Shown here: positions 4,649 to 20,940 of the stretch, in pieces
Layout: each line of letters begins with the position of its first letter
How positions within the stretch are numbered: the stretch's first letter is position 1
Assembly (NCBI RefSeq): GCF_001465345.1
Contig: NZ_CP013655.1
Span: forward strand, 3,411,091 to 3,475,090
Reading direction: 5' to 3'
DNA: 64,000 bases
Source of the DNA: Enterococcus rotai
GTDB lineage: Bacteria > Bacillota > Bacilli > Lactobacillales > Enterococcaceae
The notes under the pieces: model-generated
Database searches by the model: none
Told to the model about the DNA's origin: nothing
The model's input: the letters and a program-made list of their open reading frames with translations, nothing else
Made by a program: the position numbers and the translations under genes

Positions 4649-4730
4649 GTCAATTTATTTATATTTAGTTTATAGAGTTGAAGTAAAAAAGCTGAGTAAG
4701 TCCCGAGTTAGAACATTACTCAACTGTATA
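4649..4730 (-). repeat. left copy of ~80 bp repeat, containing operon terminator
   Basis: This stretch matches 20861-20940 in the same orientation, including the identical block AAAAAAGCTGAGTAAGTCC. Within it (4689-4725) the minus strand forms AGTTGAGT...ACTCAGCTTTTTTA, a Rho-independent terminator 54 bases after the ABC permease gene and so the natural end of the biosynthetic operon. The rest of the gap 4413-4778 holds only the promoter region of the Septu-like operon and AT-rich sequence. Confidence 0.7.
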
Positions 4731-4778
4731 TAACTTAAATAGTCCTACTCCTTTGATTCTCATCAAACGAAAGACATG

Positions 4779-7088
4779 TTATTCAACACTTTTAAGTGCT
4801 TCAGTCATTTTAATTTTATTGATTTTTTTATTTGAAAGGTAGTTAACAATAATGATTAAAACAATCGTAAAAATTATCGTAATCAAATAACTCTGTCGAT
4901 CAATAACTGGCCTAAAATAAAGCTCATCTCCCATTCCTGCATTAGAAAAGATTTTTTCATGGATTTTAATCCCAAAGGGTATCCCTATAATGATACCGCA
5001 AAGAGATAAAATAATGTTTTCAGTCGAAAGAATCTTTTTAAGTTCAGAAAATCTAAAACCTAAAACAGATAAAGTTGCCATATCACGTTCCCTATCTGAA
5101 AAATTCAAGGTACCTAAATTGTACAAGACTACAGTCAACAACAGACTAGCAGATAATATTAATAAAATTGACATCGAAAGTGTACTTCCCATGCTACCTA
5201 AAAAGTCATTTTCCTGATTTTTTGTTAAGACAATTTTCTTCATTTCATCATTTGAAAATGTTGATTTTAGATTTTCACCTACCAAACTCGTCGGCACAAA
5301 TACTTGATCAGCTTTCTCCCATGCAGATTTTGTTAAATAGAAGCCTTGCCCAATACTCAACTCTGCAATATCAGTCACCTTTAGTTTGACTAAATTCCCA
5401 GCAGAATTTCTAAATCGAATATCATCTCCTTTATTTAAAGAAAAAATTTCAGCTGTTTTCTTTGTAATAAGTAAACGATCCTCTGATAATTTTACTTGTT
5501 TATTCTCATCATAAAACTTTATATACGAACTATTATCCTCTATAACATGAATCAAACCACTCTTATTTTTACTATTAGATAAAATAAAATACGGTCGTTC
5601 TTCAAGTCCTTCTATCTCTTTATTGCTCCGAGTTTTATCATACAGTTCTCTTGAATCTGTGTCACTTGCTACATAAGCCTTTTCTTCGTATAAATAAGAT
5701 TTTTCGTAAACTGAGCTAGCCACATGATTGATTGTATCTCTAATTCCCAAAGCAGATAACAAGAGACTCGTGCAGCCAACCACTCCTATAATCGTCATTG
5801 ACATTCTGATTTTACTTCTAAACATTTGCCGCAAAGTCAACTTTTGAGATGTTTTTAATCCATTCCAAAAAGGTTTGATTCTTTCCAACAAAATATTATA
5901 GCCTTTGGTGGTACTCTTTTCTCTTAAAAGTGAAGCTGGAGACTCTTTTTCAACATTATAAAAAACAATCAACGTGGCAACGCACGTACTAAAAATAGAT
6001 AATGCAGTAATTATGGCTACTTGATAGCCATTGATGACAATTTCAGGATGATCAAAAATAAATAGCTCATTAAAAAATCGCCAGATATAATTAGGAATGA
6101 CCTTCCAACCAATTAATACTCCGAAAAATACACCAATAATACTCACCCATATACCATAAAATAAATAATGTGTAATTATTTTAAAACTGCTGTATCCTAG
6201 CGCTTTCATCGTTCCAATAATCGCTCGTTCCTTATTGATTAGGCGGTACATTGTTGTAAAGCTCATTAGGATGACTATCGCAAAAAAGATAATTGGAAAC
6301 AGGTTGCCTATTGATTGATATTGTTGTACTTTTTGACTAGTAGCTAAATCATTCAACGTTTCCTTTGACTCTAGAATGCTAATAATTTCCTGTTCGTATT
6401 TCTGTTCGATTTCTTTTTTGACTGTTTCGACATTTTTCCCATCTGCTACTTTTATGACGAGTTTATTGGTCATTGCATTATTTTGTGTAAAATATTTCGT
6501 GTCTTTTTTATTCATATAGATAAAGCCGTAATCTTCGTGATTTGGTACCACAGTTGTTGAATCTGGCGTAATATAAATATAAGAAGAGCTTACAGCCAAT
6601 CCACTAATCGAAACCTCTTTCTCAAGTGAATTTATTTCAATCGTGAGCTTGTCCCCAATGTCTAAATGATTTGCTTCAGCAAAGCTTTTATCGATAATAA
6701 CCGTATTCTTTTTGTTTAAATTTTTTCCTTTAACAATCGTATACTGATTGAGTTTAGCCTCTTGATCTACGCCGTTAATTAGGACTTCTTTGCCGTCACT
6801 ATCTGCAATTGCACCTTCTATTAGAAATTGTTCTTCGAGCCGATTAATGTTTTCTGACTCACTGAGTCCTGAAAAATCTTTGTTTGTTGGTTTGATCAAC
6901 ACTTCAATGTCAGCCTTATTTTCTTTACGATAGTTCGTTTCAACATAATCATTTAAACTTCTCCAAGTGCTATCGATTCCTATATAAATTGCTACGCCTA
7001 AAATCAACATCAATGCAATTGATAGAAGCTGGATGCTATTTTTTTTTAAACTACGAAGAAACATTTTTTTCAAAGGAGAAATTACCAT
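4779..7088 (-). CDS. ABC transporter permease, FtsX/MacB type
   Basis: The 769-residue protein has one helix near residues 17-36, a large extracytoplasmic domain to about residue 250, three helices (about 255-275, 300-330 and 360-380), a second FtsX-like half starting near residue 430 with another outside domain, and three C-terminal helices. This duplicated FtsX layout is typical of exporters of peptides or small metabolites in Firmicutes. Its start overlaps the ATPase gene by seven bases. As the last gene of the NRPS operon it probably exports or gives immunity to the product. Substrate is unknown. Confidence 0.85.
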   Translation of the reverse strand: MVISPLKKMFLRSLKKNSIQLLSIALMLILGVAIYIGIDSTWRSLNDYVETNYRKENKADIEVLIKPTNKDFSGLSESENINRLEEQFLIEGAIADSDGKEVLINGVDQEAKLNQYTIVKGKNLNKKNTVIIDKSFAEANHLDIGDKLTIEINSLEKEVSISGLAVSSSYIYITPDSTTVVPNHEDYGFIYMNKKDTKYFTQNNAMTNKLVIKVADGKNVETVKKEIEQKYEQEIISILESKETLNDLATSQKVQQYQSIGNLFPIIFFAIVILMSFTTMYRLINKERAIIGTMKALGYSSFKIITHYLFYGIWVSIIGVFFGVLIGWKVIPNYIWRFFNELFIFDHPEIVINGYQVAIITALSIFSTCVATLIVFYNVEKESPASLLREKSTTKGYNILLERIKPFWNGLKTSQKLTLRQMFRSKIRMSMTIIGVVGCTSLLLSALGIRDTINHVASSVYEKSYLYEEKAYVASDTDSRELYDKTRSNKEIEGLEERPYFILSNSKNKSGLIHVIEDNSSYIKFYDENKQVKLSEDRLLITKKTAEIFSLNKGDDIRFRNSAGNLVKLKVTDIAELSIGQGFYLTKSAWEKADQVFVPTSLVGENLKSTFSNDEMKKIVLTKNQENDFLGSMGSTLSMSILLILSASLLLTVVLYNLGTLNFSDRERDMATLSVLGFRFSELKKILSTENIILSLCGIIIGIPFGIKIHEKIFSNAGMGDELYFRPVIDRQSYLITIIFTIVLIIIVNYLSNKKINKIKMTEALKSVE

Positions 7089-7786
7089 ACTAATTCCTCC
7101 ACATCTGAAGGACTTTCCTGCGTATAACTATCTGCAATTTTCCCATTATGCATTTTAATTACTTTATCTGCAATTTTAGTAAATTCTATATTGTGAGTCA
7201 CAATGATGACTGTTTTATTCATTTTTTTAGAAGTGTCTACTAAAAGCTTGATGATTGTTTTACCTGTTTCTGAATCTAAGGCTCCCGTTGGTTCGTCACA
7301 TAGTAACATTTTAGGATTTTTCGCAAGTGCTCTGGCAATAGAGACGCGTTGTTGTTCGCCACCTGATAACTGACTTGGAAAATTCCCTGCTCGCTGATCA
7401 AGACCAACGCTAGTTAATACCTCACGAGAATTAAGCGGCTCTTTACAAACTTCCGCAGCTAACTCAATATTTTCCAGAGCAGATAAATTAGGGACTAAAT
7501 TGTAAAATTGAAAGACAAACCCAACATCATTCCTACGATATTCTGTCAGTTCTTCTTTTTTTAGTGAAGAAATTTCTTTATTGTCGATAACGATTGTACC
7601 GGAACTTGTTTTTTCCATTCCACCTAGTAGATTCAAAAGGGTTGTTTTTCCAGCGCCACTTGCACCTACTATTACAACAAATTCCCCTTCATTAATCGTG
7701 AAGTTTACTTGGTTTACAGCGTTTACCGTGACTTCCCCACTTACTTGGTATATTTTGCTGACCTCTTTAAAATTGATGTATGTCAT
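7082..7786 (-). CDS. ABC transporter ATP-binding protein (MacB/LolD type)
   Basis: The 234-residue ATPase has Walker [10 protein letters not shown] (about residues 41-49), signature [15 protein letters not shown], Walker [13 protein letters not shown] and switch His in VTHN. These are the hallmarks of LolD/MacB-class ATPases that partner FtsX permeases. The ribosome site AAGGAGG is embedded in the 3' end of the NRPS gene, and the start overlaps the NRPS stop (ATGA). It should power the permease encoded directly downstream. Confidence 0.92.
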
Positions 7787-10700
7787 TGTTTTTCCTCCTT
7801 TTTTCTAAATGTCTGATTCATAGCCCTTGCTAATAATTTGACATTATCTCCTTCAAAGATAGTTGTATGATCACCTGATATATGTTTTTCAATCCAACTG
7901 CCTTTTACATGTTGCCTCCACTGAACATAATTAGGAATTTTTTCGGATTCAGCACCAAAATAAAAAATGTCTTTAAGAACACTCGTTGAGTCTTCATATA
8001 AATGTCTTGCAGTCTCAAAACTTCTAAATAAATTGATATAATAAATTAGCTCTCGTGGACTACTTTCACCAAAAAAGGGGATTAGCCTTGCTAACTCATT
8101 AGGTACAATTTTTAACAATTTGGGCATCAAGTCTAGTCTCTTTTCTAATAAAAGAATAATTTGTTCCCAAAGCTCATCTGTATTTACAGCACTCTCTACT
8201 TTATAATCAAATGTTTCATAAATAAATTGTTGTTCATTTTTCAACTGAAATTCGAATTTTTGTATTTTATTTTCAACTGGTGGCATCGTATTAATCATAA
8301 AAAGATTGTTTACTTTTGAATTTATCTTAGATATTTCATACCCTATTGTTCCTCCAATACACCAACCACCTAAATAATCAATAGATTCGAAATTTTCTAA
8401 ATATTCATTGTACTCTTTAGCTAATTTTGTAAAGTCAATTACTCTAGGAGCAGATTTTTTAATATCCTTTTTAAATCTAATTGCGAATACATTATATTTT
8501 GAATCAATATTCTTAGCTAATTCATTATATATTCCTATTTCTCCAGATCCTGCATGGATAAATACAATACTTTTTTCACTTGTTCCCTTTTTTAATTGCG
8601 TCAAAAATTGATTTGTCTTAAAATTGTTATCTTCTTGTTTTATTTTTTCAAGATAACGAGCCTGATCATTCAATGAAAAATGATTCAATAGTTCTTCAAT
8701 TGTAATATCTACATTATACTTATTGTTAATTTTATAAAGCAATTCAGGTAATTTAATTGAGTCACCACCTATTTCGAAAAATGTTGCACTTTTAGTTAGT
8801 CTAGTGTTATTTTCTTCTAGATCAATTACTTGCGTCCATAAGTCGAAAAGTTCAAGTTCTTTCTCAGTAAACTTCTGACTAGCTTTTGGTTCCATTTCTT
8901 TTAATTTTTTAAGATTGATTTTCCCATTACTTGTTAATGGTAATGTATTTAAATGAGTAAATGAACTAGGTATCATATATGTTGGTAAAACTTTTCTTAA
9001 TTCGCTCCTGAATATTTCATGACTAATTTCATTCATAGTGTTTGTAGTATAGAAGGCGCTTAAATACTTTTTCTCATTCTGATTTTCTTTGACAACAACC
9101 TTAGTTTCACTTATATCCTTGATAGATGATAGACTATGTTCTATCTCAATTAGATCGATTCTATATCCATTAACCTTCAACTCTGATTCCATTCTACCTA
9201 ATATATTGACATATCCTTCATCTGTTAAATAGCCTTTATCACCCGTTCTATAAATTGGACCCCATTGCGCATGTTCATAGAAAACACCATGATTTTGATT
9301 TTTCAACAAATATCCATTTGCTAGTCCTTCACCTGCAATGACCAATTCACCACTTACATTGCTATTAACCAAGCAATCATTTCGATCTAAAACGTAATAA
9401 TTCTGATTACTTAGAGGATATCCATAGGGAACTCTTCTGTCTGAAAAATCGTTGAGCGGATAGTAAATTGACCAGATAGATGCTTCAGTTGCACCTCCTA
9501 AACTAAAAATATTCAACTCTTCATTTAGAAACGTTCCTTTGATTTGATAGACCAGATCTGCTGGAATAAAATCGCCACTCATTAATATATTTCTAATATT
9601 CATAATTTTACAATCAAAAATTGATAAGAGCGTTTGCACCAACCCAGGTGTTGAATTCCAAAAAGTTGCCTGTAAAATTTTTTCTTTAAATGGATACAAG
9701 TTTGATGAATTTGGGCATAATATAGTTTCACATCCAGAAAGTAACGGAGTTAATAGATCAAACACTGACAGATCAAAAGACAAGTCTGAAACATTAAAAA
9801 GAACATCTTCTTGATTTACTCTTGTTCTTGCAATAATATCATCGATAGTGTTAAGTACTGGCCTCTCAGAAATTGATATTCCCTTTGGTTCTCCAGTTGT
9901 TCCAGAAGTAAAGATAACATAAAGTTCATCGTTTGGAATCTCTTGATATTCATTTTCTAACCTTAAACTAGGTTCAGCTCTGAAGACTCGTTCTCCTTTT
10001 ATCAGAAGCTGAATATTGCTCGTTTTTAACAATTTTCTATATCTATTTTCAGGCATATCTTCTGAAATAAAGCAAAAAGAATCTGAAGTTTTGATTACCG
10101 CCAGCATTTGAACTGTGCTTTCAATAGACTTTTTACCGACTATTCCTATCCTAATTTTTTTAAAATCGTATCGCTGTTTTTCTCTACCTATCACTTCAGC
10201 CAAGTCATCGCTTTTTCTGTCTAATTCATTAAAAGTTATTGAATCATCTACTTCAGAAAAAGCTAATTTTTCAGGAAATTCTTTTTTTACTTTTTTAAAC
10301 GCTGATAATATACTTTGAGTATTTTTTTTAATAATTGATGGACTCGAATTATACTTAAAATACTTTTGTTCGATCAACTGATTGAGTTTTTTTGATATAC
10401 TTCTTACATCAATTTCTTCGTCCAAAAGAAAGCCATCAATACTTTGAATAAAGAACTGGAACATTTCATCTATCTGATTGATTTCAAAAATCTCTTTTAA
10501 GTAGTCCCAACTAATATTCAAGCTTCCATTCACTATTTTCATTTGACAATCCAGATATACTTGAGCTGTTTCCGAAATCCAATAGTCTATTTCGCCTAAT
10601 TCATCAAATTTATCAAAATCAAATAGCATAGAAGTAAATACATATGGCATTAAAGGCTGACGTCCACGCTTTTTTAATTCTCTTAGAACTTCGATTCCTT

Positions 10701-11652
10701 CAAAAGAAGATCGTCTAAAACTTGAAAAGATGTTTCTATGAGTGTCTAACGTATTCTCTAAAATCGTTTTATTCATATCAATATCAGTTGGAACTAAGAC
10801 TGTACTAGTAAAATCACCTATAACCGATAAATATTTTTCTCCTCTCGACCTTTTAAATGTAGTAACATTGATTGTAAATTTCTTATTTTCAGACCATTGT
10901 TGCAGAGCAGTACTATAAAGAGTTAAAAAGAGCGAATTTAATGATATTTTTCTTCTTTCAGCAATCTCTTTTAGTTTTGAAAGCTTCTCTGCTGTATAAA
11001 TATATTCTTTTCTAGCAAATTTACTGTGACTTGCTTTTTCTTCCTTCACTAATAAATTTGGCGCATCTGGCAAAGTCTCTATCTTTTGTTTCCAATATTC
11101 TCTATCTTTCTCATACCTTGCAGATTTTTTTGAATTTAAGTATGAGTCATTTATTTCTAAAAGAAGGTCAGACACGTCTGTTAATTTTACTCGATCATTT
11201 TTCACTGTCTTTTTTATGTCATCAAACAACTGAAATAAACTTAGACCATCAGCTATTAATAAATCTATACTTATAAAAATCAAATAATTACTAGGTTCCT
11301 CTACATTTTTTACTGCTTCAAAAGTATACAATGGAAAATCACCAGATTGATATAATTTATGTGATAACCGTTCTCTTGTTCTCTCTCTAAAACTCTTCAT
11401 TTCATCATTAGATTTTGAGCTAACGATTATTTCATAATTAAAATTATTGATAATTTCAAACGTTTCCATATTTTTTACTTTTGCTCTTAACATCGGTTGT
11501 ACTTGTATTACTTTGTTTAACGCATCCTGAAATTCCTGAATATTTCCTTTATACTTAACTTCCAAATACATATGAGTACCAGTCTTTGCATCAAAAGATT
11601 CATTTCTCCCTAAAAGATACGCTTTTTGAACTTCTGTCATTTTTATTTCCAT
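7783..11652 (-). CDS. single-module NRPS: Cy-A-PCP-TE, probably cysteine-activating
   Basis: The protein has 1289 residues from the ATG at 11652, chosen for its AGGGAG site over an ATG 45 bases upstream. Domains in order: a heterocyclization domain with LLGR-type N-terminal motif (TEVQKAYLLGR), DxxxxDxxS (Asp130, Asp135, Ser138), IGDFTS (278-283) and PYVFTS; an adenylation domain with FTSGTTGEPKG, SLGGATEASIW, YRTGD and NGK; a carrier domain with phosphopantetheine Ser965 (GGDS); and a thioesterase whose nucleophile motif GWCIG carries Cys1098. Pocket residues read by eye (D, L, F, N, L or M, S, L, I, W) lie close to the known cysteine code. Expected chemistry is acyl transfer to Cys, cyclodehydration to thiazoline and TE release. 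Start overlaps the PPTase gene by 53 bases. Confidence 0.88.
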   Translation of the reverse strand: MEIKMTEVQKAYLLGRNESFDAKTGTHMYLEVKYKGNIQEFQDALNKVIQVQPMLRAKVKNMETFEIINNFNYEIIVSSKSNDEMKSFRERTRERLSHKLYQSGDFPLYTFEAVKNVEEPSNYLIFISIDLLIADGLSLFQLFDDIKKTVKNDRVKLTDVSDLLLEINDSYLNSKKSARYEKDREYWKQKIETLPDAPNLLVKEEKASHSKFARKEYIYTAEKLSKLKEIAERRKISLNSLFLTLYSTALQQWSENKKFTINVTTFKRSRGEKYLSVIGDFTSTVLVPTDIDMNKTILENTLDTHRNIFSSFRRSSFEGIEVLRELKKRGRQPLMPYVFTSMLFDFDKFDELGEIDYWISETAQVYLDCQMKIVNGSLNISWDYLKEIFEINQIDEMFQFFIQSIDGFLLDEEIDVRSISKKLNQLIEQKYFKYNSSPSIIKKNTQSILSAFKKVKKEFPEKLAFSEVDDSITFNELDRKSDDLAEVIGREKQRYDFKKIRIGIVGKKSIESTVQMLAVIKTSDSFCFISEDMPENRYRKLLKTSNIQLLIKGERVFRAEPSLRLENEYQEIPNDELYVIFTSGTTGEPKGISISERPVLNTIDDIIARTRVNQEDVLFNVSDLSFDLSVFDLLTPLLSGCETILCPNSSNLYPFKEKILQATFWNSTPGLVQTLLSIFDCKIMNIRNILMSGDFIPADLVYQIKGTFLNEELNIFSLGGATEASIWSIYYPLNDFSDRRVPYGYPLSNQNYYVLDRNDCLVNSNVSGELVIAGEGLANGYLLKNQNHGVFYEHAQWGPIYRTGDKGYLTDEGYVNILGRMESELKVNGYRIDLIEIEHSLSSIKDISETKVVVKENQNEKKYLSAFYTTNTMNEISHEIFRSELRKVLPTYMIPSSFTHLNTLPLTSNGKINLKKLKEMEPKASQKFTEKELELFDLWTQVIDLEENNTRLTKSATFFEIGGDSIKLPELLYKINNKYNVDITIEELLNHFSLNDQARYLEKIKQEDNNFKTNQFLTQLKKGTSEKSIVFIHAGSGEIGIYNELAKNIDSKYNVFAIRFKKDIKKSAPRVIDFTKLAKEYNEYLENFESIDYLGGWCIGGTIGYEISKINSKVNNLFMINTMPPVENKIQKFEFQLKNEQQFIYETFDYKVESAVNTDELWEQIILLLEKRLDLMPKLLKIVPNELARLIPFFGESSPRELIYYINLFRSFETARHLYEDSTSVLKDIFYFGAESEKIPNYVQWRQHVKGSWIEKHISGDHTTIFEGDNVKLLARAMNQTFRKKEEKQ

Positions 11653-12148
11653 TTTTATTTTCTCCCTTAAAATGATTACAAATATACGCAACAACATAAT
11701 TATTTTGCTCGACTATCTTCACCGTTACATGGTTCTTATTTTTATAAGATACTTTGTAACGATTGAGTTCGTCCTGTTCAATACTAATTTCTTTAAAATC
11801 AATATACAATCCTTCTCCAAAATACTTTGAATACACCTCCTTTATCCCCCATAGTTTAAAAAAATTTTCTTGTTGAGCCTTTGAATAGCTGATGCAATCT
11901 TTGCAGTTAAACATAAATGATATAAAAATATCCATCTGTTCATGAGTTAGAGGTTTCTTTTTTTCAATATCAATTGATACAGGGCAAATAGATGAAGTTA
12001 TAAGTGCCGCATAGTTTCCCGAATACGATTTAGAAAAGAATTTTGGATTTTTACACTTTATTAATTGATTAAAGTAAATCCTTTGATTTTCCTTGCTGAT
12101 ATTTTTTTCCAGCAAATATATTTCACTTCTCAACTTCTTCATCCCCAT
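11600..12148 (-). CDS. 4'-phosphopantetheinyl transferase, Sfp type
   Basis: The 182-residue protein carries the Sfp signature pieces SIDIEK (about residues 57-62) and FFKLWGIKEVYSKYFGEGL (about 95-113), where the WxxKE pattern binds Mg and CoA. It would install phosphopantetheine on the NRPS carrier domain and on the stand-alone carrier protein of this operon. It is shorter than typical Sfp (about 220-230 residues). The start is uncertain because the ribosome site is weak (AGGTATA). Its 3' end runs into the NRPS start. Confidence 0.8.
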   Translation of the reverse strand: MGMKKLRSEIYLLEKNISKENQRIYFNQLIKCKNPKFFSKSYSGNYAALITSSICPVSIDIEKKKPLTHEQMDIFISFMFNCKDCISYSKAQQENFFKLWGIKEVYSKYFGEGLYIDFKEISIEQDELNRYKVSYKNKNHVTVKIVEQNNYVVAYICNHFKGENKNGNKNDRSSKSVSFREK

Positions 12149-12213: not shown

Positions 12214-13731
12214 TCATACTACATCATTTTTTAAGTTGCAAATTATTTTGGATACCTTTTTCCGATCAAGTTTACCAGTGTTTTTTTTAGGAAGTTCTCC
12301 ATAATCAAATAAGTAAACACCATCCAATAACATATAGGACGATAATACTTTATTCAATTTTTCATTGATATCAACGCAATTATATTCTATAGTACTTTCA
12401 ATACAAGCAATAATCTTAGGTTCACCGGAAGATCTTTTAGATTGAATAACAATTACCTCTTTTATATTTGGAAAAAAAGACAAAATTGCCGATTCAATCT
12501 CAGCCAGCTGTACTCGATGGCCTCGAACTTTTACTTGTGTATCCTTTCGTTCAATATAATAAAGACCAGCTTCCCTTACTTCAATGATATCACCAGTACT
12601 ATATATACTTTTTGGTTCTGCTCTTTGATTATTTTTAAAGTAACTCCCAACTACAGGTATTTTGTAATCCAATACAAGCTCACCTATTTTACCTTTTGTA
12701 TGATAATTCTCAACAGGATATATTTCACCATTTTCTAATTTTAGTCTATAATCCAAACATCTATTTGCAATACCCAAACATCCTACCTGATCTACATGAG
12801 TCAGATATTGACCAGAGCAGTAAGAAGACTCTGTTTGTCCATATAAAGCATATATTGGTTTTGCTGGGAACAATTCAGCAGCTTTTAAATAGTCATGTTT
12901 CAAAACAGCTTCTCCACCCAAAACAAAAACTTTTAAATGATTTAATTGATTTTTTTTCTGGTGGATTCTTAAAAAATATCTAAAGAAAGTAGGGACACTA
13001 TGCCAGATAGTAATTTTATTTTTTTTGAGCCATCTATCTAATAACATTATATTTTTCATATTTTTTAAATCACACAAATATAGAGTTGCCCCAGAATAAA
13101 GTGAAGTATAGATATCTACAACAGAAGCATCATGACTAAGAGTTGAAAATAGTGTTAGGCGGTCATTTGCAGTAATGTGCAAATTTTTAATATATTCTTT
13201 AACATAATAATCAACTGCAAAAGAAGTTTGGCAAACATACTTAGGATGACCTGTTGATCCCGAAGTAGGTAATCGATAAACCTCTTCACAGTTTAAGCTT
13301 TTTTTAAAAGATATATCATGATTTTTAAATAAATCAAAAGTGGCAAGATCTACAATTATTAGTTTGGGAAAGATTTTATTAAAATAGTTTGTATTTTCTT
13401 CACTTAGTTGGTTTGTTAGAATCATATCAAGATTTGCAGTTAAAATTATCTTTTCAATTTTTGCAATTGGATCGCCTTTTTCAATAGGTATATATGTACA
13501 TTCGGCATATAGACAGCCGATCATTGCAATAATACTTGTTACCTCGTGATCAAACAGCAATCCACAAGTAAAAGTAACAATTTTATTGTATTGAGTATTA
13601 GTAATTAATTCAGCTATTCCTCTGCTTGAATTTAATAAATTTCTATAAGTTATTACTATCTCTCCATCAACAAGAGCTGCTTTATCTGGGAAACGTTTAA
13701 CTGTAGACTCAATTTCTTTAATCAACATCAT
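12214..13731 (-). CDS. stand-alone adenylation (AMP-ligase) enzyme
   Basis: The 505-residue enzyme begins at the ATG at 13731, after AGGGAG; an upstream ATG at 13788 lacks a site. Motifs seen: LPTSGSTGHPK (A3), YALYGQTESS (A5), YSTGD (A7), VKVRGHRVQLAEIE (A8) and a C-terminal catalytic lysine region KKNTGKLDRKK (A10). An Asp in LSHDASVVD at the pocket position that usually binds an alpha-amino group suggests an amino acid substrate, though which one cannot be read. It probably loads the discrete carrier protein with the starter unit. It overlaps the MFS gene by 14 bases. Confidence 0.85.
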   Translation of the reverse strand: MMLIKEIESTVKRFPDKAALVDGEIVITYRNLLNSSRGIAELITNTQYNKIVTFTCGLLFDHEVTSIIAMIGCLYAECTYIPIEKGDPIAKIEKIILTANLDMILTNQLSEENTNYFNKIFPKLIIVDLATFDLFKNHDISFKKSLNCEEVYRLPTSGSTGHPKYVCQTSFAVDYYVKEYIKNLHITANDRLTLFSTLSHDASVVDIYTSLYSGATLYLCDLKNMKNIMLLDRWLKKNKITIWHSVPTFFRYFLRIHQKKNQLNHLKVFVLGGEAVLKHDYLKAAELFPAKPIYALYGQTESSYCSGQYLTHVDQVGCLGIANRCLDYRLKLENGEIYPVENYHTKGKIGELVLDYKIPVVGSYFKNNQRAEPKSIYSTGDIIEVREAGLYYIERKDTQVKVRGHRVQLAEIESAILSFFPNIKEVIVIQSKRSSGEPKIIACIESTIEYNCVDINEKLNKVLSSYMLLDGVYLFDYGELPKKNTGKLDRKKVSKIICNLKNDVV

Positions 13732-14959
13732 TGACTCCCTTTTTTTTAAAAATAATAGATCGTAAGAGAAATGAAGCAACAAGCACACAAATAATAATAA
13801 TTGTTGTCATAAGCATGATCCCCTTTTTAAAGTTCATATTAATAGTCGTAGATAGTACTGGTATTAACATCGTAGTTGAAAATGAAATCAACATTTGACG
13901 AATACCAGATACTCTTCCCATAAACTCCTGTTTGCTTTTCATTTGTAATGTAAAGCTAAACATAGATACTGATATAGCATTAGTAATTCCTAGCAATAAC
14001 ATTGCAACACAAATAATATATTTCTGATCAATAACTAGTAAGCCAATCGCTATACCTTCAATAGATAAAGCAATTAATGCTATATAAAACGTATGATGAA
14101 TCTTTTCGTTTCGTCCAAATAGATTAACCCCAATTATTGCTCCGATAGCAAATAAAGAGTCCCAAATGGATAACCAACTACTTCCTACATTTATAAAAGA
14201 TAGCAACGGTGCATATGTTAAATTAATAAAAGAAACAATAACAAAATCAATCGTACCAATGAGGGCAATAAAAAGGATAATTCTATGCTTAGCTAAATGA
14301 AGAATCATTTCTTTCCAATCATGTAAAACGTTCTTAGGAGAAAATAGTTTAAAATTGTTAAAAAATTCTAAAATAGACTCTTCTTGTTGATTGGGTATAT
14401 ATGAAATTTTCACGAAAAAAGCTGAACAAAAATAAGATATACCATTAATGAAAATAGCTACATATGGTGAAAAAATCGCAATAATAATTCCTGCAAATCC
14501 TGCACCCATAAATTGACCTATTTGCTGGTAGGTTGACGTTCTTGCATTGTATTTAGCTAAATCAGAATCATGCGCTATCAAAGGGCCTATTGTAAAAATT
14601 GAAGTTCTATAAAAGGGTCTTAGTAAACTCAATAATGTTGCGGCAAAGACTAATGACGATGTTATTCCTAGCATTGAAAAAAAGCCTGCTATTACAATAA
14701 TTATTCCTCTTAATATCTCGGAAATAACAGCAGCTGATTTTGCTCGCCCATTATCAGCTGCAATACTAGCAAAAGACTGCGTCAAAAAAGCCAACACTGC
14801 TTCTAGGACAAGGATTAAAGCAAACGACGATGTTTTCCCTGTTTGATTATATAAAATCATTCCCACTGCTAATACATACATTCCATTACCAATATTCGAA
14901 ATAAGCATTCCCATTGGTAATAAAAATTGTGGATCATTATAATACTTTCTTCTAGTCAT
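13718..14959 (-). CDS. MFS transporter
   Basis: The 413-residue membrane protein has about twelve hydrophobic segments and the short charged cytoplasmic loop AADNGRAKSAA in the MFS motif A position. It resembles the drug/metabolite efflux MFS group often found in natural-product operons, including siderophore export. Ribosome site AGGTGG precedes the ATG. The operon has both this and an ABC exporter, so one may export product and the other confer immunity or handle an intermediate. Confidence 0.85.
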   Translation of the reverse strand: MTRRKYYNDPQFLLPMGMLISNIGNGMYVLAVGMILYNQTGKTSSFALILVLEAVLAFLTQSFASIAADNGRAKSAAVISEILRGIIIVIAGFFSMLGITSSLVFAATLLSLLRPFYRTSIFTIGPLIAHDSDLAKYNARTSTYQQIGQFMGAGFAGIIIAIFSPYVAIFINGISYFCSAFFVKISYIPNQQEESILEFFNNFKLFSPKNVLHDWKEMILHLAKHRIILFIALIGTIDFVIVSFINLTYAPLLSFINVGSSWLSIWDSLFAIGAIIGVNLFGRNEKIHHTFYIALIALSIEGIAIGLLVIDQKYIICVAMLLLGITNAISVSMFSFTLQMKSKQEFMGRVSGIRQMLISFSTTMLIPVLSTTINMNFKKGIMLMTTIIIICVLVASFLLRSIIFKKKGVNDVD

Positions 14960-14974: not shown

Positions 14975-16225
14975 TTAATAAAAGCTAAGTTGGATATCTT
15001 TTTCAAACTCTTCCAAAAATTCAAAATACTGTTTTTTAGGCATATCTCTTGGGAAACAACCTGTTATCCAAGCTAAATAAGAAAATGACTCTCCCTCGGC
15101 AGCAATATAATCACCAGCTCTTTTTCTAAGAAAAATCTTGTCAATCGCCTCATGTTTTAATTTCTCCCCCACCTTAATCTCTTTAATTTTACCTTGTCCT
15201 TTATAACTGACATTGTACCAAAAAAGGTTTTCCATAGGTTTCCATTCTCTTCGGTATTTTTTGATACGCATAATTTCCTGAGGAATATAAGATTTTAGTA
15301 ACATTTCATAGTAAGGCTCCCCCGACGTCTTTTCAAAAATTTGATAAAAAGATCCTCCAGCTCCTGGTCTTAAAGCTGCTTCAATTACGTACGGTTGATT
15401 TTTCTCGTCTAGTCTTAATTCGGTATGTGTCGCACCATTTTCTATCTGACATGCTTTAGCTGCGCTATGAGCTTCACTTAGAATATCAGATTTAATTTTT
15501 TGATCTAAATCTACTTCTGTAAAGTACAGTCTATCTGGAAAGTTTGGTCCTACAGGTGTTCCTTTCGACATAATACCATCAATAATTGGTTCACCATTTA
15601 TCCAAATTGTATCAACGGAATATTCTCTTCCATTGATATACTCTTCAATAAGATAGCCGCTAGTTTGAGCAGCCTCTTTATTGAGAACTGTTTTATTAAA
15701 ACGAATAATTTTTTTGATTTGATTTATTAATTCAACTTCTGTACTCACGATTTTTACGCCTGCACTCCCTGCACCAAATACTGGTTTCACAATCAGTGGA
15801 AACTCAAGCGTTAAAGACGTTAACTCATCAATAGTTTTTCCAAAAAACATTTGAGGTGTCTTTACATTTTTTTGTAACCATGTAGATTTCATCAACGTTT
15901 TGTCTCTCAGTGTCATATAAGTACTCGTATTATTCACATTAATATTCATTGCTTCTGCAATCAAAGCAACTTTATTGGTCAATTGCTCTATGCAAGAAAC
16001 AATACCAAAAATTTCCCCATATTGATTTTCAATAATGTTAACAATATTTTGTGTATCACTATCGAAAATATCTAAAACAAGATACGGATATGAAGAATCA
16101 ATATCTTTTTCCGAGAGATAAATAAAAATTGGTTGATAGCCTATTTTTTTTGCTGCTTCATATAAATATTGAGTACTAGTATCTTCAGAAAAAATCAGAA
16201 TAACATTTTTTTTTCTATTGATCAT
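14975..16225 (-). CDS. ATP-grasp carboxylate-amine ligase
   Basis: The 416-residue protein has an ATP-grasp core: LRDKTLMKSTWLQKNVKTP, the flexible loop FPLIVKPVFGAGSAGVKIV (about residues 143-161), the nucleotide and metal block LIEEYINGREYSVDTI, and HTELRLDEKNQPYVIEAALR with metal-binding Glu and a downstream Arg. ATP-grasp ligases activate a carboxylate as acyl phosphate and join it to an amine or thiol. In this operon it may append an amino acid or act on the thiazoline acid. The start overlaps the carrier protein gene (ATGA), which suggests the two act close together. Confidence 0.85.
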   Translation of the reverse strand: MINRKKNVILIFSEDTSTQYLYEAAKKIGYQPIFIYLSEKDIDSSYPYLVLDIFDSDTQNIVNIIENQYGEIFGIVSCIEQLTNKVALIAEAMNINVNNTSTYMTLRDKTLMKSTWLQKNVKTPQMFFGKTIDELTSLTLEFPLIVKPVFGAGSAGVKIVSTEVELINQIKKIIRFNKTVLNKEAAQTSGYLIEEYINGREYSVDTIWINGEPIIDGIMSKGTPVGPNFPDRLYFTEVDLDQKIKSDILSEAHSAAKACQIENGATHTELRLDEKNQPYVIEAALRPGAGGSFYQIFEKTSGEPYYEMLLKSYIPQEIMRIKKYRREWKPMENLFWYNVSYKGQGKIKEIKVGEKLKHEAIDKIFLRKRAGDYIAAEGESFSYLAWITGCFPRDMPKKQYFEFLEEFEKDIQLSFY

Positions 16226-16473
16226 TTTAATTCCTCACTTTGATTGAAAAAATGACTAATTTTATTTAGTGTGGAAACTGAATCCACTTCAAATTCATCA
16301 AAATCAATCTCAATTCCTGCTTGTTCTTCAATTCTTAATACAAGCTCCATTAATGCTAAAGAATCTACCCCAAGGTTCTTAATCGGCACATATTCAAACT
16401 GTTCAATATTTCCGATGATATCATTAATGACTTTTTCTTCAACCAAACCCGATAATAATTTCTCTATATTCAT
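16222..16473 (-). CDS. acyl/peptidyl carrier protein
   Basis: The 83-residue acidic protein has the carrier signature LGVDSLALMELVLRIEEQ, with the phosphopantetheine serine in DSL (about residue 39). The ribosome site GGAGGAAAA precedes the ATG. Fatty-acid ACP genes normally sit with fab genes. This one lies between the unknown 329-aa gene and the ATP-grasp gene, so it is probably the pathway's discrete starter-unit carrier, charged by the AMP-ligase. Confidence 0.88.
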   Translation of the reverse strand: MNIEKLLSGLVEEKVINDIIGNIEQFEYVPIKNLGVDSLALMELVLRIEEQAGIEIDFDEFEVDSVSTLNKISHFFNQSEELK

Positions 16474-16475: not shown

Positions 16476-17465
16476 CTATTTTTCCTCCATTAATAATTTT
16501 ATGGTCAGTTGATAAGCTTGATTTTGAAACTCTTTATAATCTGAAACAAGTTGTTGGTATTGGAGTAGATATTTCTCCAAAAAGTGAGTTTTCGGACGAT
16601 TATAGAGCAAACTAAACCACTTTAGCAACGTTTCTAAATCTTGATTGATTTTGTTGATTGTATTCAATATTTCAGCATTTGGTTCATAATACTCTGCTAT
16701 CTCTTGCCATGCAGTTGTTATTGGCTCGATTTTGTTTGCTAAATGCTTATACATTCGCAGTTGCGTCTTTTTAGACATCTCACCTGAAAGAACGGCTTCT
16801 TTTTCTGAAAGAAAATAATCATATAAAGTCCATAAGCTTTGATCATCACAGATTACTTTTTCACCAGAATTAAAAATGGTATTTTTTTCTACTGTATATC
16901 CATATTGCTCGTTCATAATATGACTAAACGGTTGGTTACTCTCTTCAATTGTCTGTACGAATTCAGTTGGAACCTTTATAAAACTTAGTGTGATTTCTCC
17001 CGAATCAGAAACAGGAAATTTTTCTAATAATTCTGGAACAGAAATAGGTACTTTAGTTTCTTTCATTGTTTCATTTGTTTTAGTTATAAAAACGGTGCTT
17101 TGATCAATTGATTCTATTAAGTTACTTGTAAAGTACTTACTACTGTCAGGACGTATTGTTTCAAGCATACTATGCGCATAATAAGACTGATTTAAAAATT
17201 CATCCAAGGTTGTTTCTAACTCTGATGGTTTTATAACTAGTGTTTCTTCCAACTTATCTTGAATTTCTTTTAAACCATTATGCGTGGCTAGAATGGGCTC
17301 ATTTTTTTCCGTGTAATCAAACTCGAAAAAACGATCAGCCATCAACCAATTGAATTTTTTAAGTTTCATATTTCGCTTAAAAATATGGTATAGTGTTCGT
17401 TCATAACACGGATAAATCAAACTTTCAACCTGTTCCCTATCAGTCATTTGATATTCTTTTTCCAT
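16476..17465 (-). CDS. unknown biosynthetic-operon protein (329 aa)
   Basis: I do not recognise a family. The protein is soluble, with no signal peptide or transmembrane segment. It is helical and rich in Glu and Lys, with an aromatic N-terminus (YPCYERTLYHIFKR, then KFNWLMADRFFEFDY). The C-terminal third looks like long amphipathic helices, and no cofactor motif was seen. It sits two bases before the carrier protein gene and 13 bases after thiF, with an AGGAG site, so it is clearly part of the operon. It may be a scaffold or a new enzyme class. Confidence 0.75.
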   Translation of the reverse strand: MEKEYQMTDREQVESLIYPCYERTLYHIFKRNMKLKKFNWLMADRFFEFDYTEKNEPILATHNGLKEIQDKLEETLVIKPSELETTLDEFLNQSYYAHSMLETIRPDSSKYFTSNLIESIDQSTVFITKTNETMKETKVPISVPELLEKFPVSDSGEITLSFIKVPTEFVQTIEESNQPFSHIMNEQYGYTVEKNTIFNSGEKVICDDQSLWTLYDYFLSEKEAVLSGEMSKKTQLRMYKHLANKIEPITTAWQEIAEYYEPNAEILNTINKINQDLETLLKWFSLLYNRPKTHFLEKYLLQYQQLVSDYKEFQNQAYQLTIKLLMEEK

Positions 17466-17478: not shown

Positions 17479-18216
17479 TCATATCTCTTGGTTATCTTGA
17501 TGTCTATATTGATTACACATGCAATTTTTCCTCTGCTGAACTGCAATTTTTTGAATCTGATTATTTTCAAGATTAATGTAAATTAATTCAGTATTCATTT
17601 TTTGCCCTGTCAAGATCTTTATAGCCTCTGAAGCTTGCCATGACCCTACAACACCAGCTGTACACCCTATGATGGGGACTTTTTTTTGAGTTGTTTTCTG
17701 GTCTTTTGGAAAAAGGCATTCGTAGCAAGGCGTGTTTGCTTTGTTAGGGTCGACATATAAAAGGTATCCTGTCATTGATTCTACAGCCCCAAAAACAATT
17801 GGAATGTGATATTTAAGTGAAAACTTATTTAGTAATACTCGTGTTTCAACATTATCAACGGCATCGATTATTAAATCTGGCTTGCCAATAACTTCTAATA
17901 TATTTTCTTTTGTTAATCTGACCTGATTACTTAAAATCTTTGTAGTTGAATTAAGTTTATTCAACGATTTTTCTGCTGAAAGAGCTTTAGCTTCCCCCAG
18001 CCTATGTTCATTGTGTATGATTTGTCTATTTAAATTTGAGACTTCTAAAATATCATCATCTATAATACAGATATTGCCAATGCCCGCAGCGGTTAAGTAC
18101 AATAGTATGGGTGAACCTAGCCCTCCGGCACCTATCACAGCAACCGAACTCTCCTTTAAGCTTTTTTGCCCTGTTTCACCTATTTGGGACATTAATAACT
18201 GACGCTCATATCGCAT
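17479..18216 (-). CDS. ThiF/MoeB-like E1 adenylyltransferase
   Basis: The 245-residue protein has the E1 nucleotide loop GAGGLGS (about residues 30-36), the metal/ATP segment IIDDDILEVSNLNRQ, DAVDN and GAVESMTGYL, a zinc pair CYEC, GCTAGVVGSWQASEAIK and a C-terminal NCMC pair. This fits ThiF/MoeB enzymes, which adenylate the C-terminal glycine of a ubiquitin-like carrier before thiocarboxylate formation. No C-terminal rhodanese domain is present, so sulfur must come from another protein. Its substrate is almost certainly the ThiS-like protein encoded 61 bases upstream. Confidence 0.9.
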   Translation of the reverse strand: MRYERQLLMSQIGETGQKSLKESSVAVIGAGGLGSPILLYLTAAGIGNICIIDDDILEVSNLNRQIIHNEHRLGEAKALSAEKSLNKLNSTTKILSNQVRLTKENILEVIGKPDLIIDAVDNVETRVLLNKFSLKYHIPIVFGAVESMTGYLLYVDPNKANTPCYECLFPKDQKTTQKKVPIIGCTAGVVGSWQASEAIKILTGQKMNTELIYINLENNQIQKIAVQQRKNCMCNQYRHQDNQEI

Positions 18217-18277: not shown

Positions 18278-18523
18278 CTATCCACCAGATAGCTGAAGCA
18301 AAACAATAACTTCTGAATCTTCTGACAATTCTTTTGAAAAAATTTGATTTTTTTCAACTACATTCTCATTTACTACAAATACTGTATTCCATTTCAGCTC
18401 TTCTTGTTGATCAAAAAATGCTTTTTTGAAATCCTCATCTGTGCCTTTCAAATTATTTATCGCTTCCCCCAAATTGGAGATTTTGAATGATTGTTTTTTT
18501 CCTAGATAATTGATATCCATCAT
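18278..18523 (-). CDS. ThiS/MoaD-like sulfur-carrier protein
   Basis: The 81-residue protein is a beta-grasp carrier: an MDINYLGKKQSF start, a NEN segment and a C-terminal tail LLQLSGG. The chain ends exactly in Gly-Gly, the form adenylated by ThiF and converted to a thiocarboxylate. No extra residues have to be trimmed, unlike QbsE-type carriers. It overlaps the JAMM-FGE gene by four bases (ATGA) with AGGAGG ahead. The gene sits in the NRPS operon with no thiamine or molybdopterin genes in the window, so a role as sulfur or thioacid donor in a secondary pathway is likely. Confidence 0.88.
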   Translation of the reverse strand: MMDINYLGKKQSFKISNLGEAINNLKGTDEDFKKAFFDQQEELKWNTVFVVNENVVEKNQIFSKELSEDSEVIVLLQLSGG

Positions 18524-19617
18524 ACATTCCTCCTTTTTACTCTAAATCCTAAATCTCTTGCAAAATAATCTTTGTCTTCCAATTGATCCACAGTTTTTCT
18601 ACACATTTCAGGAAAAGCAAAATAGCTTCCTCCTTTTGTATTCGCAACTTCAGTTTTTGATTCAAAACATGCACACCATTCCCAAGCATTACCTTGCATA
18701 TCATACAAACCGTATTGATTTGGCTTTAAAGTAGCTACTTGTTGTAATTGATTTTTTGAATTTTCACTATAAAGTGCAACTTTCATAAAAGCTTCATTAT
18801 GATGCTCATAATCAAATGGATCTAGCTGATCATCAGCATATAACTCCCACTCTTCTTTTGTAAGTAGTTCTGTATCTGTTACCTCGCAAAAATACTGTGC
18901 CTCATACCAAGTAATATTTACTACAGGAAATTTTTCTTCCCCAATATTATATTGATGATTTTTGAATACTCTCTTATACTGTTCATTTGTTATCATTGTT
19001 TTTGAAATGAATAATTCTCCACATTTTGCAAAATCTTCTATTGTGAAACAATCTGATATTTGATTATTAATTGACATTTTTAGCAAAGAACTATTTAATA
19101 CTTTTTGTCGTCCATATCCTTTTATCGATACTATGTTTCTTGATTGATCACATAGAATAACAGGTATCTCATTAAAGTTAACATTGCTAAGAATCTCAAA
19201 GATCTTTATTGTTGGTTTTTGGGCATTTCTTAAACTAATAATCAAATGCCAAAAATTTTCGCTTGGATGAAATTCTGCATCTACTTTTGTGAAAATCGGT
19301 GGATGTCTTAAATGAGTATGGAAAACACCAATTTTTTTCAATTTATTTTTAATGATGTATTTTTCAATAGCTACACTTTCTTGAATTGATGACAGAAAAC
19401 CGGCATTGAGATTATTTTCATAATATTTACCAAATTTATTAAACCTCTCCATCACATTTTCTTCTTTTCTTGAGTCTTCACTAAAAATATAATAATCAGT
19501 TGCAATTTCTTCATCTTCTTTTGAAAAAAAATAGCCGAACGTTTTCTTAGGATAAAAATCTTGTATTTCTGAAATAAATTTTTGATATGTGTTAGCTTCA
19601 ATTTTTGCTTTCATCAT
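18520..19617 (-). CDS. JAMM-like domain fused to FGE-sulfatase-like domain
   Basis: The protein has 365 residues from the ATG at 19617 (AAAGGAGAAG site; an ATG 33 bases upstream lacks one). The N-terminal half shows a JAMM/MPN zinc motif: HTH at 100-102, then Thr110 and Asp113 in HTHx7TxxD. The glutamate expected in the PxExxG position appears to be Lys25. The C-terminal half (about 215-365) resembles formylglycine-generating enzyme: GNAWEWC, KGGSYF, MCRKT and GFRV. Of the two copper-binding cysteines of FGE, only the second appears kept; the first is Ala. JAMM proteases cleave at the C-terminus of ubiquitin-like carriers, so the ThiS-like protein is the likely partner. The fusion is unusual. 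Confidence 0.78.
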   Translation of the reverse strand: MMKAKIEANTYQKFISEIQDFYPKKTFGYFFSKEDEEIATDYYIFSEDSRKEENVMERFNKFGKYYENNLNAGFLSSIQESVAIEKYIIKNKLKKIGVFHTHLRHPPIFTKVDAEFHPSENFWHLIISLRNAQKPTIKIFEILSNVNFNEIPVILCDQSRNIVSIKGYGRQKVLNSSLLKMSINNQISDCFTIEDFAKCGELFISKTMITNEQYKRVFKNHQYNIGEEKFPVVNITWYEAQYFCEVTDTELLTKEEWELYADDQLDPFDYEHHNEAFMKVALYSENSKNQLQQVATLKPNQYGLYDMQGNAWEWCACFESKTEVANTKGGSYFAFPEMCRKTVDQLEDKDYFARDLGFRVKRRNV

Positions 19618-19696: not shown

Positions 19697-19750
19697 ATTA
19701 TAATTTTGAAAAACCTAAATTATAGAAAATGTACCTCATACCGACATTTC
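19697..19750 (-). promoter_or_regulatory. biosynthetic operon promoter with candidate Rgg site
   Basis: The minus strand has a perfect -10 TATAAT (19697-19702) but no good -35 hexamer at the proper distance, as in activator-dependent promoters. Just upstream is an inverted repeat GAAAATGT-N11-ACATTTC (19725-19750), centred near -48 from the probable start. This is where an Rgg activator would bind. The site assignment is inferred from position alone. Confidence 0.5.
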
Positions 19751-19853
19751 ATAAAAAACTAGTCGCTTATTTTTCCATTTGATTCAAGGTGTTACATGAC
19801 GTAAAATATAACTATTAGAGAGTAGGATAATTCAAATCATAAGGAGAATAATT

Positions 19854-20708
19854 ATGGAAATTGGACCATTACTAAAAAAAATACGTAATAGCAAGAATAT
19901 GACTCAAGAATCATTAGCTACTGGTATCATCTCAAGAAGTCACCTTTCAGAATTAGAGAACAGTAACTACTATTGCTCTTACGATAAATTTATTTTGTTA
20001 CTTAGAAAATTAAATGTCAGTTTAATGGAGTTTGAAGAACTTTTAAACCAAAGTATTTTTTTTGAAGAAGAATCGCTTTTAAAAAAACTAATGCAAGCAA
20101 ACAATAGTCAAAACGAACGTGACCTAAAAATGGTTCAAAAAAAAATAAATTCTTACATTAAAAAAAGTAATAACCCCTCTTCTAGAATAATACATGCTCA
20201 AATTCTTTGTGAAGCCATTATTGAATATCGGAAACACGGAAAAATATGTAATCCTGAGAGATTTGCACCGCTAAAAGAATACCTAACCGCTTGTAACGAT
20301 TGGGGCTATTATGAAATAAATTTACTTAATAACTCTTTATTTGTTTATGATGTTGATACTGCTATAACCCTTTCATCTTCCCTCATTATGAATTGCCAAA
20401 AAACTCAATCAGTAATGACAAAAGAAGTTTTAATTTTGACCTTGATTAATATGAGCGATTATCTGTTAAAATTAGATTTAAATAGAGAATCTTTAAAATA
20501 TAGCAGACTAGCTATTAAATTATGTGAAAATACAAACAGGTTATTTGAAAAATGTCTTGCTTCAATCAATGCCGCACTTGCTCAAACAAAAATAGATAAG
20601 TCTCCCCAACCCAAAATAGAGACATGGATTGAGTTCCTTCGTTTTTCTGGCTACCATGATTTAGCAAATCAGATTGATAAAGAAGTTGCTGATATTGTTT
20701 TGGATTAG
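19854..20708 (+). CDS. Rgg/RopB-type peptide-responsive transcriptional regulator
   Basis: The 284-residue protein has an N-terminal HTH (about residues 1-60) with the Rgg pattern KIRNSKNMTQESLA, GIISRSHLSELENS and LLRKLNVSLMEFEELL, followed by an all-helical repeat domain of the type that binds peptides. The site AAGGAGAA precedes the ATG, and a plausible promoter (TTCAAG, 18 bases, TATAAC) lies upstream. It is divergent from the biosynthetic operon and its 13-codon peptide ORF, so it is the likely pathway regulator. Which strand or activity state it controls cannot be read. Confidence 0.88.
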   Translation: MEIGPLLKKIRNSKNMTQESLATGIISRSHLSELENSNYYCSYDKFILLLRKLNVSLMEFEELLNQSIFFEEESLLKKLMQANNSQNERDLKMVQKKINSYIKKSNNPSSRIIHAQILCEAIIEYRKHGKICNPERFAPLKEYLTACNDWGYYEINLLNNSLFVYDVDTAITLSSSLIMNCQKTQSVMTKEVLILTLINMSDYLLKLDLNRESLKYSRLAIKLCENTNRLFEKCLASINAALAQTKIDKSPQPKIETWIEFLRFSGYHDLANQIDKEVADIVLD

Positions 20709-20860
20709 TTTAGTTATCCTTTGAAAGCTAGACGATTAATCCCTAATTTACTATGTTACTAATATCTTTTAACGTAATACTTATACTTTTATCTATCAAA
20801 TTTTCCTAACGAATTCGAAATTTTCATTCCCTTTTTTCTCTGTTCGCCTTGATTCTCGTT

Positions 20861-20940
20861 GTTGATTTATTTATACTTAGTGTATAGAATGGAAATAAAA
20901 AAGCTGAGTAAGTCCTGATTCAGAACATCACTCAACTTTA
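20861..20940 (-). repeat. right copy of ~80 bp repeat flanking the biosynthetic region
   Basis: This matches 4649-4730 in the same orientation. Its terminator fold (20901-20938) is better than in the left copy: an outer AAGTTGAGT/ACTCAGCTT stem and an inner GTTCTG-AAT-CAGGAC stem, with TTTTTT on the minus strand. No minus-strand gene precedes it closely, so this copy has no obvious operon to terminate. Confidence 0.7.

Follow-up and report, generated by a model that had tools for sequence, protein, structure and literature searches.

The window, a 64,000-nucleotide stretch of the Enterococcus rotai genome, contains a run of 12 minus-strand genes extending from position 19617 to 4779, behind a divergent Rgg regulator (Table 1, operon genes in their order in the run). 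Because neighboring genes overlap or lie no more than 65 bases apart and most starts have a purine-rich, RBS-like stretch 5' of them, the simplest reading is a single operon that runs from 19617, the second Met of the JAMM-FGE gene, to 4779. Terminator-like matches in positions 1-20000 of the window are at chance level (5 found, versus a mean of 5.3 in shuffled sequence). An earlier sequence-only reading of this DNA had named most of these parts, and all of those it named are present in the one closely spaced run, with its "AMP-ligase" being an amino-acid-type stand-alone A domain. Its gene list was incomplete, as it left out the 329-aa gene of the orphan, a putative transferase. Two direct repeats around the operon and regulator are candidate att sites.

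Table 1. Operon genes, regulator and flanking repeats, with positions in the window.
Feature	Position	Strand	Remarks
JAMM-FGE fusion	18520..19617	-	365 aa from second Met (ORF to 19650); N-terminal JAMM (HxHx10D), C-terminal FGE/SUMF1-like
Ubiquitin-like (ThiS/MoaD/CysO-like) carrier	18278..18523	-	81 aa; C-terminal LSGG
MoeB/ThiF-type E1	17479..18216	-	245 aa; without rhodanese domain
Orphan	16476..17465	-	329 aa; predicted CcbD/CtaG/AziU3 fold; invariant Cys20
Discrete peptidyl carrier protein (PCP)	16222..16473	-	83 aa
ATP-grasp ligase	14975..16225	-	L-amino acid ligase-like
MFS exporter	13718..14959	-	
Stand-alone adenylation (A) domain	12214..13731	-	ORF to 13788; code read DAVHVGLYCK
4'-Phosphopantetheinyl transferase (PPTase)	11600..12148	-	
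Cy-A(Cys)-PCP-TE NRPS	7783..11652	-	1289 aa from internal Met (ORF to 11697); probably accessory to core
ABC transporter ATPase	7082..7786	-	
FtsX/MacB-type ABC permease	4779..7088	-	
Rgg-family regulator	19854..20708	+	Divergent
Left direct repeat	4618..4738	+	Brackets operon and regulator
Right direct repeat	20823..20951	+	77.5% to left copy

Assignment of the gene products

Taken alone, the carrier gave a weak assignment (NCBIfam MoaD family, 8.5e-4) and no match in the Pfam scan; as a family, the putative assignment is firmer. PF02597 was matched by three of the four carrier orthologs (best 1.4e-4), the window's own carrier being the one that does not match, and a profile of all four had 2g1e (9.8e-4), 3dwg_C (0.0021), and 4n6e_B (0.011) as its top three solved structures. 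Only 4n6e among these is labelled ThiS/MoaD in the search output; 2g1e is MoaD-like and 3dwg is CysO. The E1 comprises a ThiF domain only, and its invariant Cys residues are limited to two pairs. Neither a desulfurase nor a rhodanese was detected among the operon proteins in Pfam/NCBIfam-type scans.

All four JAMM proteins match Prok-JAB (best 1.4e-5) and contain the HxHx10D motif; at the MPN+ position where Ser is expected, the window protein has Thr and its three relatives have Ala. The JAMM and FGE-like parts, fused in the window, are encoded by separate adjacent genes in the three relatives. Two identities for the FGE-like domain were considered and not accepted. Of the two active-site Cys of a copper FGE, the first is missing (Ala here, Ser in the three relatives) and the second is kept. 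EgtB/SenA sulfoxide synthases have an N-terminal DinB iron-binding domain, and no DinB match came up when the fusion protein was scanned against Pfam.

For the orphan, fold searches with predicted models placed CcbD, CtaG, and AziU3 first, with the fold shared over most of the protein and TM-scores of about 0.3-0.5, so that by prediction it has the fold of these three proteins. Helical bundles (FAT/vinculin) outranked the full-length matches in one search and were set aside, as their aligned length was only about 100-140 residues. At E<=10, the orphan profile matched neither CtaG nor CcbD by sequence. Transferases of the CcbD/CtaG type have a Cys-His-Glu/Asp catalytic triad; in the alignment of the four orphan sequences, Cys20 and several Glu/Asp residues are invariant. 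Whereas CcbD uses a catalytic His, the orphan has no invariant His, which might be explained by an acceptor that carries a negative charge from the start or may signal another reaction. A PCP and an A domain are encoded in its vicinity. A BtrH/C39-type identity was rejected, as sequence support is absent and the C39-like 3erv fell well below CcbD, CtaG, and AziU3 in the fold searches. A viral fold search with the orphan returned two weak matches under 0.001, one of them named peptidase, and a weak orphan match in another genome (G139; 27%, 5.3e-4) lay in a long frame unrelated by eye and was dropped as chance.

The ATP-grasp protein aligns with 3vot (5.5e-40, residues 2-374 of 416) and qualifies by sequence as an L-amino acid ligase homolog over most of its length. 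Genome G513 has no ATP-grasp gene, and its A-domain code is Phe-like; products may thus differ between relatives. The NRPS contains the Cy motif DxxxxDG as DLLIADG, GGDS in the PCP, and GWCIGG in the TE, with Cys where Ser is usual, and its A-domain code, read as DLFNLSLIWK, is close to the cysteine code. With its Cy DxxxxD motif, Cys-type code, PCP Ser, and TE, it reads as the cysteine heterocyclizing module that the sequence-only reading had proposed.

A conserved core and its possible chemistry

Two genomes of another family (G909 and G959) contain nine equivalents of the first eight genes in the same order, the JAMM and FGE genes being separate there, and without the Cy-NRPS. A third relative has seven of the nine cassette genes, reordered, and in the stretches read from all three relatives the Cy-NRPS is absent beside the carrier/PCP/A-domain/orphan core. 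The first eight genes thus appear to form a cassette of their own.

We tentatively suggest, and would put the chance at somewhat below even, that the operon is built around a self-contained, transferable cassette whose ubiquitin-like sulfur carrier acts on a PCP-held amino acid. The predicted fold of the orphan is what would couple a PCP relay to a sulfur carrier. The parts, their order, and their conservation without the NRPS come from sequence or predicted fold, and from these we infer the chemistry. The stand-alone A domain would load an alpha-amino acid onto the PCP, and the E1 would adenylate the GG end of the carrier, a host desulfurase then supplying the sulfur that turns this end into a thiocarboxylate. 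Through Cys20, the orphan may then accept the aminoacyl group held on the PCP and transfer it to the thiocarboxylate of the carrier; a subsequent S-to-N shift like that of the CysO route would give carrier-CO-NH-CHR-COSH, from which the JAMM domain could cut and release an amino-thioacid. The ATP-grasp ligase would add an amino acid to yield a sulfur-terminated dipeptide for export by the MFS protein, and in this host the Cy-A-PCP-TE protein would add cysteine as a thiazoline, with the ABC pair exporting the product. The order of the orphan, JAMM-release, and ATP-grasp steps is a guess. Our best guess on the product is an amino-thioacid, or a dipeptide derived from one, which this host would then extend with cysteine. 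Slightly more doubtful is the specific claim that a papain-fold transferase moves the amino acid from the PCP straight to the ubiquitin-like carrier and that the JAMM peptidase frees the amino-thioacid; if true, the NRPS carrier world would be joined to the ubiquitin-like carrier world, giving amino-acid thioacids or peptides derived from them.

Alternatively, the carrier might be an amino-acid scaffold and no sulfur donor, comparable to LysW-type carriers and CysO-Cys, with the E1 and orphan attaching the amino acid, the FGE-like domain altering it, and the JAMM protein freeing it. Such a role would suit a JAMM protein that is kept although the GG end of the carrier is already exposed, and that is fused with the FGE-like domain here and adjacent to it in the three relatives, as well as an E1 that lacks a rhodanese and whose invariant Cys residues number only two pairs. 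One of the three orphan fold matches, AziU3, belongs to a pathway that employs an amino-group carrier protein. However, MoeB-like E1s normally serve thiocarboxylate formation, and the first copper Cys is missing from the FGE-like domain; we consider a scaffold unlikely.

If the carrier does donate sulfur to a PCP-held amino acid, the operon would join a short list, as few known natural-product pathways use a ubiquitin-like sulfur carrier. The pathways of thioquinolobactin, PDTC, and thioplatensimycin have in common with it the sulfur-carrier protein, E1-type activation, a JAMM protein, and an activated acyl acceptor. In the sections of PMC6006322 on which we draw, these three share an acyl-CoA synthetase and a type III CoA-transferase, and CoA-based acyl activation is common to the thiocarboxylate pathways covered; an E1-rhodanese fusion occurs in the PDTC and quinolobactin systems (PMC1779556, in the part cited). 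The operon instead uses an A domain, a PCP, a protein with the predicted CcbD/CtaG fold, and an FGE-like partner, and no CoA-transferase match was found among its proteins. With the carrier, E1, and JAMM protein present and the CoA cassette and E1-rhodanese absent, we have not filed it with these pathways on the basis of its sequences.

Lincosamide synthetase (the LmbC/CcbC A domain, a carrier domain, and LmbD/CcbD) likewise combines a stand-alone A domain, a PCP, and the same predicted fold, but it differs in transferring to an amino sugar and in having no ubiquitin-like carrier (PMC4351081, PMC12945683), and no sequence similarity to the orphan was detected. Closthioamide assembly, also thiotemplated and NRPS-independent, has PCPs, an ATP-grasp protein, and CtaG, a fold match of the orphan; there the AANH enzyme CtaC installs sulfur, and the passages cited name no ubiquitin-like carrier (PMC6772006). 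The comparison extends to two further systems.

The CysO-CysM-Mec cysteine pathway, with its CysO carrier, cysteine synthase partner, and JAMM protein, resembles the operon in pairing a CysO-like carrier with a JAMM protein; the operon has no cysteine synthase match and adds a PCP, an A domain, and an FGE-like domain. Bacilysin and dapdiamide are dipeptides of L-amino acid ligase pathways, which likewise have an ATP-grasp protein of this type beside an MFS exporter, with an entirely different amino-acid-making part.

The combination of a sulfur carrier with a peptide-building carrier was not found in the described pathways checked, and full-text searches of an open-access library returned no description of this gene set, in agreement with the sequence-only reading, which had called it undescribed-looking. 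Such a carrier, operating together with a PCP, an amino-acid A domain, and a protein of the CcbD/CtaG fold, would reveal a way for sulfur to enter amino acids along thiotemplate lines. The cassette would also give JAMM-FGE proteins a role, and it is relevant to the question of why such operons include JAMM proteins, a link called mysterious in the cited part of PMC1779556. The set of JAMM, FGE, GG carrier, PCP, and orphan offers a handle for genome mining.

Recent history of the NRPS half

Compared with a second species, the stretch from the PPTase to Rgg differs at 7 of 9,400 bases, whereas the NRPS/exporter half differs by 5.5%, with an abrupt identity step at the boundary between PPTase and NRPS. 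The two halves of the operon have different recent histories. In a genome search with the NRPS, 33 of 41 genomes matched at 1e-30; among the matches listed, close ones (up to 93%) occur besides the host only in G074 and G078, and the others match different NRPS or A-domain proteins at 22-34%. G078 has the PPTase-NRPS-ABC-FtsX genes without the core, and its NRPS is broken.

The sequence-only reading had centered one pathway on the Cy-NRPS, with a small thiazoline carrying extra sulfur as a metallophore or antimicrobial. A Cys-type Cy-A-PCP-TE protein is indeed encoded within the same gene run, and the discrete PCP and A domain could supply its donor. Because three relatives have the core without a Cy-NRPS in the stretches read and the halves differ in recent history, the NRPS does not appear to be the heart of the pathway, and we regard this layout as rather improbable. 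Only in the lineage that has the Cy module would a thiazoline be plausible, and no uptake gene was recognized among the operon proteins, which speaks against a metallophore.

Even less probable, in our judgment, are two pathways on one transcript, with the cassette placed before an older PPTase-NRPS-ABC operon and separate compounds made by each. The identity step and the core-free genes of G078 would be expected from such an arrangement, but the broken NRPS of G078 could equally mean a lost partner, and the lone NRPS module has no loading module apart from the PCP and A domain of the core.

In counting the genomes that carry the cassette, 11 of the 13 genomes matching in one genome search and 27 of the 29 in a further search were dropped, as they matched in the FGE part only. 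A plasmid search with JAMM-FGE gave 77 records, none at 80% query coverage, and every one of the 20 listed begins at residue 161 or beyond, within the FGE part; plasmid searches with JAMM and with two versions of the orphan found nothing. Two pattern scans of genome contigs gave 189 and 42 pattern matches, none confirmed, and one scan of viral contigs found nothing. Because the species of G513 and G909 were not returned although the genome-contig patterns fit their JAMM proteins by eye, these scans say little about rarity; the collection may omit these species.

Cofactor synthesis and the host genome

A thiamine or cofactor role, which the sequence-only reading had named as its counter-case, was examined in the host genome. 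The operon E1 is the sole ThiF-family match, MoaE has no match, and the two proteins matching ThiG are FabK and GMP reductase; on these grounds a thiamine or molybdopterin role was ruled out as unlikely. The host-genome search with PF02597 gave no match and missed even the carrier of the window, so that other divergent carriers may have escaped it. Sulfur transfer for these cofactors, or ubiquitin-like protein conjugation, is very improbable despite the homology of the carrier, E1, and JAMM protein to such systems, as the genes sit with those for an A domain, a PCP, a ligase, and an exporter, and have the same neighbors in the relatives. Because of the single E1 match, the absence of MoaE, and the identity of the ThiG matches, the sulfur-carrier set seems to serve secondary metabolism specifically, as the sequence-only reading had held.

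Operon layout and neighbouring genes

Domain scans placed twelve minus-strand genes in one run from window position 19617 to 4779, in which adjacent genes overlap or lie no more than 65 bases apart and a purine-rich stretch precedes (5') most gene starts. Promoter-like and terminator-like matches occurred at the shuffled level (109 vs. 103.9 and 5 vs. 5.3 expected, respectively) and were left out as evidence.

Genes of the operon, its regulator and the flanking repeats (window positions)
Feature	Coordinates	Description
Rgg-family regulator	19854-20708	divergent from operon; domain scans
Operon gene 1		JAMM-FGE fusion
Operon gene 2		carrier, 81 aa, GG end
Operon gene 3		E1
Operon gene 4		orphan, 329 aa
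Operon gene 5		PCP
Operon gene 6		ATP-grasp
Operon gene 7		MFS
Operon gene 8		stand-alone A domain
Operon gene 9		PPTase
Operon gene 10		Cy-A-PCP-TE
Operon gene 11		ABC ATPase
Operon gene 12		FtsX permease
Direct repeat	4618-4738	left of operon and regulator
Direct repeat	20823-20951	right of operon and regulator

Adjoining the operon, 1880-4412 encodes a PtuA-like ATPase and a PtuB-like HNH protein together with a small gene, a candidate anti-phage set; this region had no alignment in the 40 kb read of G074, a second species with a matching operon. Type I restriction-modification genes (HsdR, HsdS-like, HsdM) occupy 21929-29705, with a NucS-C/Shedu-like protein at one end (21929-23551), and most of this stretch likewise failed to align to the G074 sequence that was read.

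The sulfur-carrier set and a putative aminoacyl relay

The carrier, E1 and JAMM protein are a sulfur-carrier set. The window carrier is divergent, with an NCBIfam MoaD family match of only 8.5e-4 and no match in the Pfam scan, and its assignment becomes firmer once three orthologous sequences are added. PF02597 is matched by three of the four carriers (best 1.4e-4), the window's own being the exception, and all four end in GG. The three best solved matches of the carrier profile are 2g1e (9.8e-4), 3dwg_C (0.0021) and 4n6e_B (0.011); the last is ThiS/MoaD, and we take the others to be MoaD-like and CysO, respectively. The E1 has a ThiF domain alone, and the invariant Cys residues in its alignment comprise two pairs and none besides. 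The JAMM HxHx10D motif is kept in all four proteins; the Ser position of the MPN+ motif holds Thr in the window and Ala in three relatives. The FGE-like part can be aligned to solved formylglycine-generating enzymes, whose two Cys we take to be copper ligands; the first of these positions is Ala in the window and Ser in the three relatives.

The stand-alone A domain, the PCP and the orphan, which has a predicted CcbD/CtaG fold, are akin to the lincosamide-synthetase relay. In the simplest link between both sets, the orphan would pass an aminoacyl group to the carrier thiocarboxylate; were this group an alpha-amino acid, the transfer could be followed by an S-to-N shift, leaving an amide that the JAMM peptidase could cut. 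A need to cut this amide would account for a JAMM protein beside a carrier whose GG is already exposed, and the orphan would need no His base because the acceptor thiocarboxylate would already be an anion. A reading of the carrier as a scaffold for the amino acid fares nearly as well as the thiocarboxylate-acceptor reading.

A-domain codes were read off the GrsA positions. The stand-alone A-domain code, DAVHVGLYCK, nearly equals those of G909 (DAIHVGLYSK) and G959 (DAVHVGLYSK), relatives from another family, and we know of no substrate for it; that of a third such relative, G513, is DAWTIAAICK, the Phe code. The NRPS A-domain code, DLFNLSLIWK, is near the Cys code. Among solved structures, the ATP-grasp protein is most similar to 3vot (5.5e-40), an L-amino acid ligase, and this relationship points to a dipeptide product. 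In the NRPS TE, the nucleophile motif reads GWCIGG (residues ~1096-1101, numbered from the Met at 11652), with Cys replacing Ser, as it does in G074.

Although the window set would work like thiocarboxylate pathways, we do not class it with them because those pathways, in the accessible portion of PMC6006322, use a CoA-transferase, which domain scans did not find among the operon proteins, and because the sets in table rows 4a-4e of PMC1779556, in the part available, are without PCP, ATP-grasp or FGE subtype. The sulfur enzyme of closthioamide is, from the accessible text of PMC6772006, of another type, and the enterococcal clusters named in the available part of a review of RiPP ThiF-like enzymes (PMC12250964) differ in kind. 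Full-text searches of an open-access library listed no description of the window gene set.

Distribution and history of the cassette

In partial genome samples, JAMM-FGE matched 13 of 105 host-family genomes at E<=0.001, full-length only in the host and G074, and 29 of 398 genomes of the class at 1e-8, with the JAMM part matched only in the host and G513. A JAMM profile found three among 295 genomes of G513's family (G513, G909 and G959) and two among 100 of G909's genus, neither new. The orphan profile found the host alone among 299 genomes of the phylum, and the single protein found the host and G074 among 395 of the order, a third match being discarded as chance.

JAMM and FGE are separate genes in the three relatives from the other family, and G909 and G959 keep the window order (JAMM, FGE, carrier, E1, orphan, PCP, ATP-grasp, MFS, A domain). 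The order in G513 is JAMM, FGE, carrier, orphan, PCP, E1, A domain, followed by an MFS gene unmatched to the window's; ATP-grasp was not found in this cassette, and the stretches read from all three genomes held no Cy-NRPS. Identity to the window ranges from ~20% (carrier) and 22% (G513 orphan) to 48% (MFS) and 50% over 66 residues (PCP). By eye, a methyltransferase-looking gene lies on the opposite strand at the G513 cassette end (18823-19446 of L030, the stretch read), possibly for tailoring or self-protection.

Between the window and G074, only 7 of 9,400 positions differ across bases 11591-20990, a block flanked by ~5% divergence (377 of 6,812 at 4779-11590; 40 of 800 at 20991-21790). Correspondingly, the core (eight genes, JAMM-FGE to stand-alone A domain), PPTase and Rgg have dS values of 0-0.011, vs. 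0.15 for the NRPS, 0.26 for ABC and 0.28 for FtsX. In the 40 kb read from G078, a member of the host's genus, the operon is represented only by PPTase-NRPS-ABC-FtsX (9006-16358 of L053; 92.6% over 7,354 bases vs. the window), with the NRPS broken into separate frames, and JAMM-FGE had no match anywhere in the G078 genome; these genes are a remnant without the core. The contrast with G074 and the core-less G078 argue that the core block is probably the product of a recent exchange and that the NRPS half is older in the genus. A genome search found four copies of the direct repeat on a single strand within ~35 kb, suggesting a modular island.
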